IMG/VR virus record: IMGVR_UViG_3300032213_001937
Span: 1-31,527 of that record
Reading direction: 5' to 3' (one strand)
DNA: 31,527 nt
From: a virus
Position numbers and translations under genes: made by a program. Positions 5,605 to 31,249 of this stretch are shown in pieces (within the stretch, counting starts at the first letter, position 1; each line of letters starts with the position of its first letter). The notes beneath the pieces are model-generated. The model was not told the origin of the DNA, ran no database searches, and saw only the letters and a list, made by a program, of their open reading frames with translations.

Positions 5605-6489
5605 TTAAGATAATTTCTTTAATTGTTCAAGAAATTGTTTACTATCATCTTGTGGGTAGAGTGCAAAGTCCACTAAGTATTCGTGTGCCTTTTGGTCTGG
5701 CGGTATTTTACAAATAAAACCTCCATCAGAAGCCCAATAAGCTGAACCGGGTCTGCTTGTCAAGTCAATTTTACTATCTGTGATAGCTTTTTTAACAACG
5801 AAAGCAACTTCTACTTCTTTACTTCCTACTGATTGCATAAACTTATTAGGTTGCGATTCTGCGTACAATTCATAGTCATTACGCAATCCTTCTGCTGACT
5901 TAGGGAAGCCCATTTCATCAATAAAGCTGATACCCAAATAATTTGCGTGCCTACGCATATCTTCTTCGGTTGCGTTTGTTGCGATTTTGATTGCTTCGAT
6001 ACGATTCAGCCTTTTCTTTCTATCAATTTCTGCTTGACGAAGCGGATTCCATTCAAAGAATGTGTTTCTCTTGTACCCTTTTCGGTGTGGGTTGTCAAGG
6101 TTTGCGTTTGATTTGTTTAAAAAGTCAATCGCTGTTTGGTCGTAATCGGGAAGTCTTAAAACCCTGCGTTGGAAAACAAGTGTTCTCCGGTTGGCTTTAA
6201 TAAAATCTTCCGTAAGTGCCTTTTGGTCTTCCAAATAAATACTTGGAAATCCTCTTAAAAGCCTAATACGTTCCATTCTTTGCTTCTCTGGATTCCAAAC
6301 ATCATCAATACCTTCCATGTGGAAATCTCCACTTTTGTTTACATCTGATAGCTTGTAAACTTTAAAGGTACTTGTTTGAATTGTTGAAGATTGTGTCGCT
6401 GACTGCGATTCTTCGTGTTGGTGTGATAAATCCGGTTCATCTTGAAATACAAGAGATTGGTCGGAAAGTGTTGAACTTTTTTTCGCCAT
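5605..6489 (-). CDS. Structural-block protein of unknown function (294 aa)
   Basis: 294 residues. The first ~45 are Ser/Gln/Thr-rich and probably disordered. From ~45 the protein is well ordered: YKLSDVNKSGDFHMEGIDDV, a basic segment RRTLVFQRRVLRLPDYD (~105-120), FFEWNPLRQAEIDRKKRLNR (~148-167), and a C-terminal part with SRPGSAYWASDGGFICKIP. I do not recognise a named family. Its place after the capsid gene (separated only by the homing endonuclease) and the strong terminator behind it suggest a head or head-completion protein expressed with the capsid. The charged central region could bind DNA or another capsid component. No enzyme signature was found. Confidence 0.55.
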   Translation of the reverse strand: MAKKSSTLSDQSLVFQDEPDLSHQHEESQSATQSSTIQTSTFKVYKLSDVNKSGDFHMEGIDDVWNPEKQRMERIRLLRGFPSIYLEDQKALTEDFIKANRRTLVFQRRVLRLPDYDQTAIDFLNKSNANLDNPHRKGYKRNTFFEWNPLRQAEIDRKKRLNRIEAIKIATNATEEDMRRHANYLGISFIDEMGFPKSAEGLRNDYELYAESQPNKFMQSVGSKEVEVAFVVKKAITDSKIDLTSRPGSAYWASDGGFICKIPPDQKAHEYLVDFALYPQDDSKQFLEQLKKLS

Positions 6490-22603: not shown

Positions 22604-22912
22604 TTACACCAGAGATATACTGCTTACTCTAATGTGTATTTGTGCTTGAATGTTTTTATCTTCTCCGGTATATGTTTTTGCTTCGGGTTTTCCCTCTATA
22701 TAAATTGTAGTTCCTTTTTTCATATAGTTTGCAATATTTGTTTTTTCAGTCCACCATGCACAATAAAGCCATGTTGTTTTTTGCTGTTCTACTCCTTCTG
22801 AATTTTTATACTTTTCAGTATGTGCAGCACTAAAATTAATTACTGACTTTCCATTTACTTGATTAACTGTTGCATCTTTTCCAAGATTTGCGATTGTTTC
22901 AATTTTTAACAT
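22604..22912 (-). CDS. ssb: Single-stranded DNA-binding protein (102 aa)
   Basis: 102 residues covering one OB fold and little else. Landmarks: MLKIETIANLGKDATVNQVN (first strands), KSVINFSAAHTEKYKNSEG (the 'v..f.vA....y....g' stretch), KTTWLYCAWW (the '.w......' strand), ANYMKKGTTIYIEGKPEAKT (the '.yl.KG..v.veG.l....y' core) and IQAQIHIRVSSISLV. The acidic C-terminal tail of cellular SSBs is absent, as is common in phage versions. It coats ssDNA during replication and recombination. Its ATG overlaps the end of the second half of the methyltransferase gene by 14 bases. Confidence 0.88.
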   Translation of the reverse strand: MLKIETIANLGKDATVNQVNGKSVINFSAAHTEKYKNSEGVEQQKTTWLYCAWWTEKTNIANYMKKGTTIYIEGKPEAKTYTGEDKNIQAQIHIRVSSISLV

Positions 22913-23683
22913 TGTTTAGGTTTTTATTAATTAATAATTCTTGTTCTTGAATTGCTTTAAATATTTTATAAGGAATTTGAGGAACTACTGCATTTCCGTA
23001 TCCATGTAATTGCTGTCTAACCAATTTAGGGGGTATCCCATCATCCAAGCATATAATTGGGGGTTCACTATTCCAATAACCGCCCCTACTAATTTGTATA
23101 GCTGTTCCGTAAGGTTTCCACTCCCACGATAGTGCCTTCTCTGATACATAGGAAAAGAAAGTTTCGGTCTGTTGCAGTCTGATGCTACTGGGGTATGCAA
23201 CCAAATACAGCCGGGCACGTTTGTGGGGGCACCAGCTTCTGACGCTCTGCAAATTCTCCATTCTGCATTATACCCCAATCTGGAAAGTTCGGATAAAACT
23301 GTTCTAATGTCTGACCCTCCGTTAGTTTTAAGAAAGTTTGCGACATTTTCGGCAATAATATATTTTGGTTCAATTTCTTTGATTGCTCGAAGCATTTCCC
23401 AAAACAACCCTGTTCGTTTACCTTGTAGCCCCTTCTGACCTTTGCCATTCGCGATGCTCGCATCTTGGCAAGGGAAGCCTCCGGAAAGCACGTCAACTCT
23501 TCCTTTGTGAACTGTAAAGTCTGTTGTTGTAATGTCTCCATAACTAATTGAAGTTTTAAATTTTTTTTTAAGGTGTTCTATTTTATAATCAATATATTCA
23601 CAATGAAAAATATTTTCCCATCCCATCCATTGTGCTGCTAAGTCAAAACCGCCTATTCCGCTAAATAAAGAACCATGTGTCAT
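22899..23683 (-). CDS. DNA (cytosine-5) methyltransferase, interrupted by a one-base frameshift
   Basis: The 5' part (from ATG 23683) encodes LFSGIGGFD (6-14, motif I), GGFPCQDAS (68-76, motif IV with catalytic Cys72), a Trp-rich LFWEMLRAI, AENVANF (111-117, motif VI) and a segment reading GYNAEWRICRASEAGAP. After the five-C run at 23225-23229 this frame continues with unrelated sequence and stops at 22985. The overlapping frame continues the enzyme: PHKRARLYLVAYPS (motif VIII), a short recognition region, VRQQLHGYGNAVVPQIP (motif X-like, GNAVVP) and a stop at 22899. Adding one C would join GAP to HKRAR and give about 261 residues. The second frame's stop overlaps the SSB start, as in a normal operon, so it is the original C-terminus. 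The cause may be mutation, a base-call error in the homopolymer or -1 frameshifting. As read, the first frame alone yields 232 residues without motif X. Confidence 0.8.
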
Positions 23684-23695
23684 AAAATAATTTAA

Positions 23696-25525
23696 TTAAA
23701 AATAAGTAAAATCATTTGATTCTTCAACTATTTCTTCTTGTTGTCCAAAATTAATATTTTTATTTCTTAGCAATACCGCAATAGGGTCTATTCCATTGAA
23801 TAAAAATCTTCTTGTTTTGAAAAACATTTCAAATAGTATAAAGCCCTTTTTTCCTACTATCTTTTGTCTGCGTATCTTTTTAGAGTGAAATTCACAAGAT
23901 GGGTTTTGTGGGTCTGTTTGGGCTAATCCTCGGTGGTATATTAATATGTTATCCATTTTATTGTTCCACATAGCACCATCATTTAAATCAAATACATCAG
24001 GGCAAGGATAGTTTCCGTTATTAGCTTTTACCATTAATTTAGGATGTGCTATTATCCAAAAGAAAACATTATTAGTTTGTGCAAATCTGCTAAATAAAGA
24101 TAACACCCACTCAAGGTACTTATCTGTTCTTTGAAAGTTTTTATATTCGTTGGTAAGTTGGTTGAATGGGTCTATATCGCAACCATCTATGTTTTCCTTT
24201 ATTATTAGTTCAAGAAAAACCTCCATTACATATTGTGGTGTAGGGCTTACATCTTTTGGATATACATAGAATATGTGTTTGCATACAAGGTCGTAAACTC
24301 CTTCGTAAACTTCTCTTGAAGGTCTGTTTGGATTACTTGGGCTACAATCGCATCCTAATATAATCTCTACAAAATCGTGGTAGTATTCTTCGGGTGGGTT
24401 ATCTTCGGGTGCAAAGGAAGCAAACTTTTCTCCATGTAGTAACATTCGCATAGCTTGATACCATTTCTTAAAAGTTGACTTACCATAATTTCCGATTCCA
24501 GATAGCAAAGTTATTTCACCTCTCTTTGGTTTAAACCTTTCATCTAATTCGGGTATGCCTACTCCATCAATCTTTGCATAACCTTCATCGTATATTTTTA
24601 ATGCTTGTTCTTTTACATCAATACCATAAACAACATCTTTCAGTTTTAGTCCTTCATCAAATATTGTTTGGTCAACAGGTATTTCTTTTCTTGTTACTTT
24701 GTCCACTAAAACTTCTCTATCAAAAGAAGCTGAACCATAACTTGAATTGTTTGACTTATATGCAGACTTGATTGCCCTTTGTGCTTCGTTTCTTGTAAAA
24801 TCAGAATTGCTTACAAACTCTGATTCAATCATACTTGTTGCGGAATGTAAGTCTATTCCGAACCTACAACAAGCAGAAGCTAACTTGAAAATAAAATTAT
24901 TTCTTTCCCCTGTAACAAACGCTTCGTTTTTATTTGTTAGCCAAGTAAGTATTCTTTTAAAGATAACATCTTGCTCTGCGGTTTTTACATAGGTTGGTAT
25001 TTTTTCGGTCTTTTTTGTTTTGGTAAAAACACTCGCTTCCTTGTTTATGTAAATTTCACTATCAAAAGATTCATAGCATACCCTAGATGGGTTTATTCCG
25101 CTTTTGTCTATGTCTATAAATTCTTCTTGTAGTGCTTGAAAATGTTCCCGGTGTTTTTTTGGGCTAGATATTTTTACAAGTGCTTTTAACCCATTTCCGG
25201 AAGGAGAAACCCAACAAGCATATACAAATGGCTTTGAAATTATATCTGTTTGCTTATCCCTTAACTCACCTACATTATCAAAGTCAAGTACAATATATCC
25301 CGAATGTTCTATAAGCTGTTCATCTGTTCTATCCTTTCCAAACTTTCCCGAAAAGCAAACGGAGGGTAAATTAAGTTTAATTTTGTTCGCTTTTTCCTTA
25401 TCTAAAGTACCCCTAATTTCCTCTACTATTTTTCTGCTTTTACCCGATTTAATTCTTTCTAAAGCATCATCAATGGAAACATAAAATGGCTCTTTTGAGA
25501 AAATGTTTTTAAAAATCGTAACCAT
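23696..25525 (-). CDS. Primase-helicase: VirE_N/prim-pol-like front and DnaB/Twinkle-like helicase (609 aa)
   Basis: 609 residues. The front (~1-170) resembles VirE_N/BT4734-like sequences: SGYIVLDFDNV (75-85) gives a DxD pair, VSPSGNGLKALVKIS (106-120) is the family's conserved SPSGNGLK segment, and NPSRVCYESFDSEIYIN follows. The C-terminal half is a RecA-type helicase: LSGIGNYGKSTF (341-352, Walker A), FAPEDNPPEEYYHDF, IDGCDIDPFNQL (~446-456, Walker B-like), WIIAHPKLM (490-498) and SKKIRRQKIVG (~548-558, arginine-finger region). Bacteroidota phages often fuse primase-like and helicase parts this way. It would unwind and prime the fork with SSB downstream. The middle (~190-260) contains TGERNNFIFKLASACCRFG, typical of this family's linker. 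It starts after a 131-base gap with inverted repeats and no clear promoter. Confidence 0.8.
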   Translation of the reverse strand: MVTIFKNIFSKEPFYVSIDDALERIKSGKSRKIVEEIRGTLDKEKANKIKLNLPSVCFSGKFGKDRTDEQLIEHSGYIVLDFDNVGELRDKQTDIISKPFVYACWVSPSGNGLKALVKISSPKKHREHFQALQEEFIDIDKSGINPSRVCYESFDSEIYINKEASVFTKTKKTEKIPTYVKTAEQDVIFKRILTWLTNKNEAFVTGERNNFIFKLASACCRFGIDLHSATSMIESEFVSNSDFTRNEAQRAIKSAYKSNNSSYGSASFDREVLVDKVTRKEIPVDQTIFDEGLKLKDVVYGIDVKEQALKIYDEGYAKIDGVGIPELDERFKPKRGEITLLSGIGNYGKSTFKKWYQAMRMLLHGEKFASFAPEDNPPEEYYHDFVEIILGCDCSPSNPNRPSREVYEGVYDLVCKHIFYVYPKDVSPTPQYVMEVFLELIIKENIDGCDIDPFNQLTNEYKNFQRTDKYLEWVLSLFSRFAQTNNVFFWIIAHPKLMVKANNGNYPCPDVFDLNDGAMWNNKMDNILIYHRGLAQTDPQNPSCEFHSKKIRRQKIVGKKGFILFEMFFKTRRFLFNGIDPIAVLLRNKNINFGQQEEIVEESNDFTYF

Positions 25526-25656: not shown

Positions 25657-26439
25657 CTATTCTTCGGCATATTGCGTTGGAACAAAATTGTTTCTTGCGA
25701 TTTCTAAGTCTTTTTCAATGTTTCTCGGAACGTAACCGGAGGGGGTGAAGTTCGCCCTTGCTTCCTCCAAACCTTTTTCCAAAATTTGTTTTTGGGGTGC
25801 TGCCATCGGTTTCAAAAATGGGATTGTGTTTTTAATTTTTGCTTTCCAATTTTTTATCGGTTTGTTGTGTCCATCCTTCCATCCGTTTTCCTGCCAAGTT
25901 TCAATTTTGGATTTCACCGGGTATTCAAATTTTGAAAAATCGTGTCCAAGTTTTTCAATTTCAGTTTTGGCAAAATTTAGCATTTCTGAAATTTCAGGCA
26001 TTTGTATTTTTTTAACTTTACTATTTGTAAGAATACTTTCTTTTTCTATTACATTTTCATTTTCATTTTCATCTTCCATATGCTTATCCATATGAGTATC
26101 CATATGCTTAGCATATGCTTCGGTGTTTTTTTTCTTACTTTTTTCAACCAAACCATTACTGCGTCTGCTTTCTGTGTATTTACTTCTTCTTTCTTTTTCT
26201 TTCTCTAATCTTGCATTTAAGTAATATTTACCATCAAATTCAAATTTTTCTAAAACATTTGTGCAAACATTGTCAAAGCATACGCCAAGCATATGCTTAG
26301 CTTGTGCTTCTGTAAATTTACCCCTAGCAAACTGCAACATTAATAGTTCTATGTACGCACCTTTTTCTAATAAAGTAAAGTGCATTGTACCTAACTGCCA
26401 ATCACCCGGATAAAACAAAAAAGCAGGGTCTTTTGCCAT
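25657..26439 (-). CDS. DUF1376-like replication protein, possible initiator (260 aa)
   Basis: 260 residues. The N-terminal ~85 are a winged-helix-type start, MAKDPAFLFYPGDWQLGTMH then FTLLEKGAYIELLMLQFARG, matching DUF1376-like proteins ('af.fy..dw...t..l...e.GaY..ll'). A basic stretch follows (EKEKERRSKYTESRRSN), then a low-complexity linker (YAKHMDTHMDKHMEDENENE, ~108-127), and a C-terminal part with SKFEYPVKSKIETWQENGWK and KPIKNWKAKIKNTIPFL, the usual end of phage replication proteins. In phages this family usually sits next to a helicase and is thought to start replication. The linker is encoded by iteron-like repeats (26077-26117), recalling lambda O, whose gene contains its own origin. 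It lies between the HTH gene (10 bases upstream) and the primase-helicase. Confidence 0.65.
   Translation of the reverse strand: MAKDPAFLFYPGDWQLGTMHFTLLEKGAYIELLMLQFARGKFTEAQAKHMLGVCFDNVCTNVLEKFEFDGKYYLNARLEKEKERRSKYTESRRSNGLVEKSKKKNTEAYAKHMDTHMDKHMEDENENENVIEKESILTNSKVKKIQMPEISEMLNFAKTEIEKLGHDFSKFEYPVKSKIETWQENGWKDGHNKPIKNWKAKIKNTIPFLKPMAAPQKQILEKGLEEARANFTPSGYVPRNIEKDLEIARNNFVPTQYAEE
26077..26117. repeat. Four CATATG-centred repeats inside the initiator-like gene
   Basis: CATATG occurs at 26077, 26089, 26101 and 26112, with spacing 12, 12 and 11, close to one helical turn. The units read CATATGCTTATC, CATATGAGTATC, CATATGCTTAG and CATATGCTTCG. A further copy at 26290 is embedded in the perfect palindrome AAGCATATGCTT (26288-26299). 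They look like initiator-binding iterons. Alternatively they are a minisatellite coding the linker. Confidence 0.5.
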
Positions 26440-26449
26440 AAATAATTAA

Positions 26450-26656
26450 TTATTTAATTTTTAAACTAATATCCAAAACCTCGCTTATTTTTTCTAAATT
26501 TGATTCGGAAAGTAAACATACCTTTTGAACCAAAGAAGAATATAATGTTCCATAAGGAATATCTGTTTTACGAGAAAGCCAAGACATTCTCCTTTCCATT
26601 TCATCTAGCCTTTTTAAAATCTTTTGAGAAATTTCATCTCTTTTTTTGTTGCTCAT
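26450..26656 (-). CDS. Small helix-turn-helix regulator (68 aa)
   Basis: 68 residues from the ATG at 26656. An upstream TTG at 26671 could add five residues, but ATG is preferred. After a charged helix (QKILKRLDEMERRM) comes MSWLSRKTDIPYGTLYSSLV, a helix-turn-helix-like sequence (WLSRKT-DIPYGTLYSSL), followed by LLSESNLEKISEVLDISL, the third and fourth helices of XRE-type domains. Such small proteins control early promoters or bind the origin. It is the first minus-strand gene left of the divergent promoter region, with the plus-strand recombination operon starting 100 bases away, so it may set the balance between the two operons. Confidence 0.6.
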   Translation of the reverse strand: MSNKKRDEISQKILKRLDEMERRMSWLSRKTDIPYGTLYSSLVQKVCLLSESNLEKISEVLDISLKIK

Positions 26657-30753: not shown

Positions 30754-30758
30754 ATAAG

Positions 30759-30779
30759 CATATGATAAGCATATGCTTC
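30759..30779. repeat. Two CATATG palindromes matching the initiator-gene repeats
   Basis: CATATG at 30759 and 30770, spaced 11 bases. The second is inside the perfect 12-base palindrome AAGCATATGCTT (30768-30779), identical to 26288-26299. Both are preceded by TAAG. Confidence 0.5.
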
Positions 30780-30780
30780 T

Positions 30781-30827
30781 AAAAAAGTCAGGCGGAATTG
30801 GTTAGACGTTCGAATCCTGTCCTGACT
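30781..30827 (-). terminator. Intrinsic-type terminator of the regulator gene, built on a tRNA-like stem
   Basis: On the minus strand: AGTCAGG, a 28-base loop that can pair further (GGA with TCC), CCTGACT, then T-run (plus-strand A 30781-30786). A 7 bp perfect stem followed by T fits a rho-independent terminator for the minus-strand gene that ends at 30904. Confidence 0.5.
30786..30827 (+). other. tRNA-like remnant lacking the anticodon arm
   Basis: AGTCAGG (30786-30792) pairs perfectly with CCTGACT (30821-30827) like an acceptor stem. Between them are GGAATTGGTTAGACG, a D-arm-like segment, and TTCGAATCCTGT, the T-loop plus the 3' side of a T-stem. The anticodon arm, variable region and 5' side of the T-stem are absent, as if an internal fragment had been deleted. 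It cannot be a normal tRNA. Confidence 0.55.
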
Positions 30828-30903
30828 ACGATACGGCGTTGACCTGTCCGCAGCCGAAATGTATACAGAATAGTGGAGGGTGACAGCGGGAGAGACTGCA
30901 TAT

Positions 30904-31152
30904 TTATTTCCATCCATATTCGCCTATGGATAGCTTTATTTGTTTAATTTTTTCATCCGATAGTGTTATTTTTCCTTTTTTTAACATTCTTTGAAAGTTC
31001 CCCTTGTCTATTCCTATTTCAAGGCACATTTTAGACCATTTAAACTTGTTGTGAGTGTTAATCCAATCTACTATGTCTTGTTCCTTTACGCTAGGATTAA
31101 ATTCTGCGTTTTTTGGTTTTACAAACCCTATTTGTCTTGATAATTTTTCCAT
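30904..31152 (-). CDS. Small DNA-binding regulator candidate (82 aa)
   Basis: 82 residues: MEKLSRQIGFVKPKNAEFNP, DIVDWINTHNKFKWSKMCLE, IGIDKGNFQRMLKKGKITLS and DEKIKQIKLSIGEYGWK. The middle (WSKMCLEIGIDKGNFQRMLK) looks like a helix-turn-helix with GIDKGNFQRML as recognition helix. Its ATG lies four bases after a perfect -7 box, and the promoter is overlaid by palindromic repeats, so autoregulation is likely. It ends opposite the plus-strand operon. It could be a repressor or a Cro-like protein. The sequence does not tell which. Confidence 0.65.
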   Translation of the reverse strand: MEKLSRQIGFVKPKNAEFNPSVKEQDIVDWINTHNKFKWSKMCLEIGIDKGNFQRMLKKGKITLSDEKIKQIKLSIGEYGWK

Positions 31153-31156
31153 AGTT

Positions 31157-31190
31157 CAAAATTACAACAAAAGTTGTACAAAACAACAAA
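31157..31190 (-). promoter_or_regulatory. Promoter of the right-end regulator gene
   Basis: Minus strand: TTTG (31187-31190), 22-base spacer, TAATTTTG (31157-31164), an exact TAnnTTTG four bases from the ATG. Operator palindromes overlap both the spacer and the -33 element. Confidence 0.6.
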
Positions 31191-31249
31191 AGTTGTTGAA
31201 AAAATGCCAAAATTAACAACAAAAGTTGTTTCAATACAACAATAGTTGT
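31164..31249. promoter_or_regulatory. Array of four operator-like palindromes
   Basis: ACAACAAAAGTTGT at 31164-31177, 31183-31196 and 31216-31229, and ACAACAATAGTTGT at 31236-31249. Each has inverted arms ACAAC/GTTGT around a 4-base A-rich centre, all in the same orientation. Start-to-start spacing is 19, 33 and 20 bases, near whole helical turns. Two copies belong to each of two repeated promoter modules. Confidence 0.7.
31208..31215 (-). promoter_or_regulatory. Second, upstream copy of the TAATTTTG box
   Basis: Minus-strand TAATTTTG identical to the box at 31157-31164 and 51 bases upstream of it. It is likewise joined to an ACAACAAAAGTTGT palindrome. No clear -33 TTTG is seen for this copy. 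Confidence 0.4.

Follow-up and report, generated by a model that had tools for sequence, protein, structure and literature searches.

Iterons inside a phage DUF1376 gene: a probable replication origin within the gene of its putative initiator

Introduction

Among related lambdoid phages, the types of iteron and of initiator are divergent. In lambda and in Stx phages the initiator gene O holds the origin midway along its length, and this origin combines iterons with an AT-rich region (PMC7466680). The gp38 protein of SPP1 binds direct repeats in its own gene (oriL, in gene 38), with an AT-rich unwinding element alongside, and it also binds a second, distant array, oriR (PMC6316719). The Rac prophage has an active origin, oriJ (PMC3945230).

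Here we describe a locus in what we call the window, a stretch of 31,527 nucleotides that makes up positions 1 to 31,527 of IMG/VR virus record IMGVR_UViG_3300032213_001937. It is highly probable, in our assessment, that the DUF1376 gene of this window (Table 1) encodes the phage initiator and contains the iteron origin on which its own product acts. The same arrangement appears, judging from sequence, to recur in many phages that carry the poorly understood DUF1376 family.

The window resembles lambda in that its AT-rich tract sits where lambda has its AT-rich region. It differs in its N-domain, since a profile search of the window protein found only DUF1376 and no N-domain family of the lambda-O type, and in its iteron, a 10-bp palindrome repeated at 11-12 bp, with a second cluster in the codons of the DNA-binding domain. 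Compared with SPP1, the window's cluster C resembles the second, distant array of gp38, but it is apparently missing from the close relative L004, and a shallow comparison of gp38 with the DUF1376 protein showed no sequence relation. The Rac protein YdaU belongs to the same Pfam family (DUF1376) and its linker has AACAGGTGTT and AACAGATGTT 12 bp apart, although its half-site is AAC as against AGC in the window. Lin1244/Lin1753-like proteins (PF14297) share the tandem iteron form in linker codons but have another N-terminal Pfam family. A search of open-licence papers did not find DUF1376 described as an initiator or an origin. An origin placed inside an initiator gene is already known; what appear to be new are the protein family, a diversifying 11-bp iteron code and an array lying in recognition-helix codons.

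Results

Table 1. Features of the initiator locus and of the intergenic array in the window.
Feature	Position	Strand	Remarks
Primase/helicase-like protein	23696..25525	-	Downstream of initiator gene; Pfam BT4734-like_N, PriCT_1; PHROG DNA primase/helicase
DUF1376 protein, 260 aa, putative replication initiator	25657..26439	-	Pfam, PHROG, AF2 models
AT-rich, C-poor tract, candidate DNA-unwinding element	25999..26074	-	GAAAAT repeats encoding ENENEN; directly 3' of cluster B
Cluster B unit 4, AGCATATGGA	26075..26084	-	K-H-M; 12 bp after B unit 3
Cluster B unit 3, CTCATATGGA, degenerate	26087..26096	-	T-H-M; 12 bp after B unit 2
Cluster B unit 2, AGCATATGGA	26099..26108	-	K-H-M; Lys codon AAG; 11 bp after B unit 1
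Cluster B unit 1, AGCATATGCT	26110..26119	-	A-Y-A frame
Cluster A unit 3, degenerate, + strand AGCATACGCC	26277..26286	-	11 bp from A unit 2
Cluster A unit 2, AGCATATGCT	26288..26297	-	K-H-M-L frame; 11 bp from A unit 1; inside AAGCATATGCTT
Cluster A unit 1, AGCACAAGCT	26299..26308	-	A-Q-A frame
Small Cro/C1-type HTH protein gene	26450-26656		Directly upstream of DUF1376 gene
Cluster C, AGCATATGAT and AGCATATGCT 11 bp apart	30757..30777	.	Intergenic, 3' of last + strand gene

The DUF1376 protein and its neighbours

Pfam PF07120 (DUF1376) matches the protein at E 1.3e-8 with 35.5 bits, above the curated cut-off of 30.1, and a PHROG entry, "primosomal protein," matches it at E 1.8e-13. The AF2 model divides into a predicted winged-helix N-domain (residues 1-105), a disordered linker (about 106-149), and a helical C-domain (150-250). 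In the N-domain, helices 11-17, 23-39, and 44-63 come first, then a short hairpin, then a long helix, which is the winged-helix order. Foldseek with this model gave no significant match (best E 0.39), the leading matches being mostly winged-helix, and searching PDB sequences with the family profile gave no match. Because there is no significant PDB fold match, it is from predicted topology that helix 44-63 is the predicted recognition helix. Cluster A occupies the codons for the N-terminal part of this predicted helix, and cluster B those of the disordered linker.

In the DUF1376 protein YdaU, the C-domain can be aligned with the C-domains of the lambda-O-like proteins of Gifsy-1/2 and mEpX1. 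In the window the neighbour downstream of the DUF1376 gene is the primase/helicase-like gene, and in relatives DnaC-like or DnaB-like genes lie nearby. The turn in GC skew, at about 26.5 kb, coincides with a turn in gene orientation, so that the two are confounded. At 22899-23683 there is a C5 cytosine methylase ORF that covers only the first half of its Pfam profile, and it is possibly split or truncated.

The repeat unit in the window

An earlier note on this DNA had drawn attention to CATATG. The four copies that it reported in linker codons, about one helical turn apart, are present at 26077-26112 (starts at 26077, 26089, 26101, and 26112; spacings 12, 12, and 11). The fifth, starting at 26290, lies as claimed in a 12-bp palindrome, AAGCATATGCTT at 26287-26298, with the correction that it is 178 b from the nearest of the four (26112 to 26290) and not 170. 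The palindrome does have a second copy, at 30767-30778, one base off the 30768-30779 given before.

As the definition of the repeat, CATATG did not hold up. Its count in the whole window is that of chance (9 observed, 9.1 expected); five of these nine fall within a 220-b stretch inside the DUF1376 gene, and two others are separated by 11 b. With at most two mismatches allowed, AAGCATATGCTT has 11 near-matches in the window against 2.4 by chance, a figure reached in none of 100 shuffles. The true repeat unit is the 10-bp palindrome AGC-N4-GCT, spaced 11-12 bp; CATATG is its common core, and it is the flanking half-site AGC that discriminates. The fifth copy, taken earlier to stand alone, is the middle one of three units spaced 11 bp, so the gene holds two clusters: A, with three units (26277-26308), and B, with four and some decay (26075-26119).

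Under a synonymous-codon null with window codon usage, the window gene has three exact units where 0.83 are expected (p 0.03) and three tandem pairs where 0.79 are expected (p 0.007). The best match between A and B in this gene alone is not significant against synonymous shuffles (p 0.16). For the window gene taken by itself, significance is thus modest, at p 0.007-0.16.

Directly after cluster B the GC content drops to 0.22 (25980-26059). The same is seen more widely: in 48 homologues, the stretch of about 75 b that follows the iterons is 78% AT, compared with 65% for the gene as a whole.

Repeats are conserved as DNA

Three scans of viral contigs yielded 221 homologous genes, of which 84 were left after dereplication at 80%; the close relatives L003/L004 are too similar for a silent-site test. 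For each gene, region A (codons 35-62) was compared with linker region B, using shuffles that keep the protein and the codon usage. A-B similarity exceeded this synonymous-codon null at p<0.05 in 41 of the 84 genes (combined p 2.5e-35), and the match is lost when the A of one phage is paired with the B of another (cross-pairing z 14.3). In many genes (L082, L110, L160, L210, L100, and L115) A and B match in differing reading frames, as with AAAACCATTAGGTT in L110, AACAAGTGTTAAACAAGTGTT in L210, and AAAGCATATGCT in L160. Palindromes of the type derived from B occur 52 times in region A, where the synonymous null gives 14.8 and control stretches of the same genes give 0-2. Finally, where Lys precedes His-Met, AGC-type genes use the codon AAG in 12 of 12 cases, and genes of other types in one of eight.

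Across the family, the repeats are kept as DNA and not merely as peptide. The earlier note had proposed a check of whether homologues preserve them at the DNA level, and had named scrambled DNA under the same linker as the result that would speak against an origin. Over the 84 genes we found the reverse: the repeat persists in the DNA, and what varies is its reading frame and the peptide.

Half-site types switch together in A and B

The units reduce to the form x-y-C-N4-G-y'-x', with a phage-specific xy of AG, GT, AC, AA, TG, or TA; per gene, the half-site types are AGC (window phage), GTC, ACC, AAC, TGC, and TAC. Of 53 genes, 48 have A and B of one type, where permutation gives 15.6. In 99 genes there are 24 tandem pairs of units of the same type, against 1.5, and their spacings peak at 11 (17 pairs) and 12 (seven pairs).

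When region A is left out of the tree (few columns, modest support), the A type is seen to switch nine times or more along it. In nearly every row A and B have the same type, for example in L160, L104/L221, L100, the window's clade, the clade of L050, L210, and L107/L114. A test of independent pairs on the tree gave no significance, with too few supported pairs. Half-site type partly follows phylogeny, and the independent switches that this tree of few columns resolves are a handful.

Near-confinement to one class of gene

The repeats are nearly confined to the DUF1376/Lin1244_N gene class. Tandem pairs, whose count is free of circularity, occur at 0.26/kb within the gene and at 0.003/kb in the 2 kb flanks. 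Own-type palindromes, whose density within the gene is partly circular, are located at codons 20-59 and 100-119. Genome-wide, the tandem pair is the sole one in P19250A and one of two in PfDIW6, both of these being complete genomes.

We also scanned viral contigs blindly, with the DNA pattern AACGNNCGTTCAACGNNCGTT and no protein information. The scan gave at least 120 stretches, where rough arithmetic leads one to expect a handful by chance. Among the 120 matches listed, 93 lie in DUF1376-like and 17 in Lin1244-like ORFs (110 together); of the other ten listed, three resemble truncated or untyped relatives by eye. Pfam PF14297 was confirmed for three of five non-DUF1376 ORFs tested. Dereplicated at 60%, the listed matches include 47 genes, with the motif in frame 0, 1, and 2 in 30, 4, and 13 of them, respectively.

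Individual cases illustrate the variety. The proteobacterial phages PfDIW6 and Mcat18 have two copies of AACGACCGTT, 11 bp apart, in their DUF1376 genes; that of P19250A has three copies of AACGGGCGTT, and that of a Rhizobium phage has TGCAAATGCA/TGCATATGCA. In L298, L318, L376, L385, and L399, an AACG..CGTT tandem iteron lies in the linker codons of Lin1244/Lin1753-like (PF14297) proteins, which suggests that these proteins form another family of initiators, with origins like that proposed for DUF1376 genes. The distant gut-phage DUF1376-like gene at L041 2810-2870 (MT837034.1) has another repeated motif, GGTAACACTGACGGTAATACC, at the same linker position.

The exact sequence AGCATATGCTTAGCATATGCT was absent from the viral contigs searched. 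The triple AGCAWAWGCTN occurs in 30 viral contigs, mainly one marine lineage, where it forms an intergenic array, and two DUF1376 lineages, with one match in GTDB. A tblastn search with P0001 found two phage records, both distant, and no plasmid. The marine array, in L010 at 5928-5970 and in about 25 other contigs (L006-L034), repeats AGCAAATGCT at an 11-bp period in a short piece of non-coding DNA beside a large terminase gene. It is nearly identical between many contigs and has an iteron form like that of the DUF1376-gene repeats; no DUF1376 gene was found in the one record with this array that was checked.

Discussion

The comparison with lambda made in the earlier note, of iterons inside an initiator gene, gains support from the DNA-level conservation, the AT-rich tract, the helicase/loader gene downstream, and the O-like C-domain. 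In the mechanism that we propose, the origin would consist of the dyad-symmetric iterons of clusters A and B, which recur roughly once every helical turn (11-12 bp). The winged-helix domain of the DUF1376 protein would bind these iterons cooperatively, the AT-rich tract beside B would then melt, and the DUF1376 C-domain would bring in the replicative helicase or the protein that loads it. The pair of letters xy in the half-site, AG for the window phage, would act as a phage-specific address that differs from phage to phage in A and B together. We infer four things here: that the product binds repeats in its own gene, that the tract melts, that the helicase is recruited, and that the locus acts as an origin.

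A bolder idea goes with this mechanism, and here we consider the chances evenly balanced. The DNA that encodes the predicted recognition helix may at the same time be a site array for that same helix, so that a change of specificity would rewrite site and reader within a few dozen bases. Rewriting of this kind may have recurred among phages, with the array in the linker changing in its wake, in DUF1376 initiators and, for the linker only, in Lin1244_N initiators.

Other readings of the repeats must be weighed. They could exist for the protein, supplying helix motifs and a low-complexity HM/KHM linker, in which case the similarity of the DNA would be a by-product, and the GTC-type genes would fit this, with A and B repeats in the same frame and encoding one peptide (GHMTTHM). 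Elsewhere in the family identical DNA is found in differing frames and peptides, the repeats exceed synonymous nulls, and the silent choice of AAG for Lys follows half-site type. For the family, these three observations refute the protein-level reading, and we think it very improbable overall. Alternatively, the repeats might be operators for the DUF1376 protein, or for the neighbouring Cro/C1-type HTH protein, that shut off early transcription and have no origin role. Tandem dyad-symmetric sites would suit a repressor too, a small HTH gene is placed directly upstream, and cluster C is intergenic. Operators would, however, have to work from 130-365 b into the coding region, away from the gene's promoter, while sites are almost missing from 2 kb on each side across loci. 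The AT-rich tract comes after the sites, and in unrelated phages the sites go with the DUF1376 or Lin1244 domain whereas the neighbouring gene varies by phage. We rate operators without an origin role as unlikely.

A further possibility is a version of the origin reading and does not exclude it: cluster B may be the real origin, and A secondary or regulatory (e.g., in autoregulation or handcuffing) and dispensable for initiation. The AT-rich tract adjoins B, and proteobacterial Mcat18 and P19250A have linker iterons without an exact own-type palindrome in A. Against this, region A is conserved like B in the Bacteroidetes-like set, to which the excess of palindromes over the synonymous null belongs, and A switches type together with B. 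We hold a B-only origin to be a tentative possibility, with somewhat less than even weight.

If the repeats are an origin acted on by the DUF1376 protein, then DUF1376, a Pfam domain of "unknown function" in phages of many bacterial groups, has a testable function, as by extension does Lin1244_N. A simple DNA signature would lead to origins and to initiator genes with no need of protein homology, and the naturally matched pairs of initiator and iteron would offer a readout of the code of protein-DNA specificity. Should cluster A be functional, it would be a clear case of overlapping information, in which the codons of a reader contain the site that it binds.

The right end of the window

The palindrome copy at the right end, treated as solitary in the earlier note, is part of the two-unit array that we call cluster C. 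Over 20 bases it agrees with the gene clusters at 19, where the best of 60 simulated windows reached 18. Possible roles for it are an extra binding array, a second origin, a decoy, or a regulatory site.

Eight bases from cluster C there is a 43-nt tRNA-like element (30786-30828, + strand), possibly the remnant of an attachment site. It has a 7-bp acceptor-like stem (AGTCAGG/CCTGACT), a D-arm-like part GGCGGAATTGGTTAGAC, and a T-loop GTTCGAATC, without an anticodon arm. Neither ARAGORN nor Rfam called it, and no exact match was found in other viral contigs; it folds better than shuffles (z -3.25). Further to the right, at 31160-31249, four near-palindromes ACAACAAAAGTTGT, spaced 19, 33, and 20 b, lie upstream of a small - strand ORF (30904-31152) and are operator-like.
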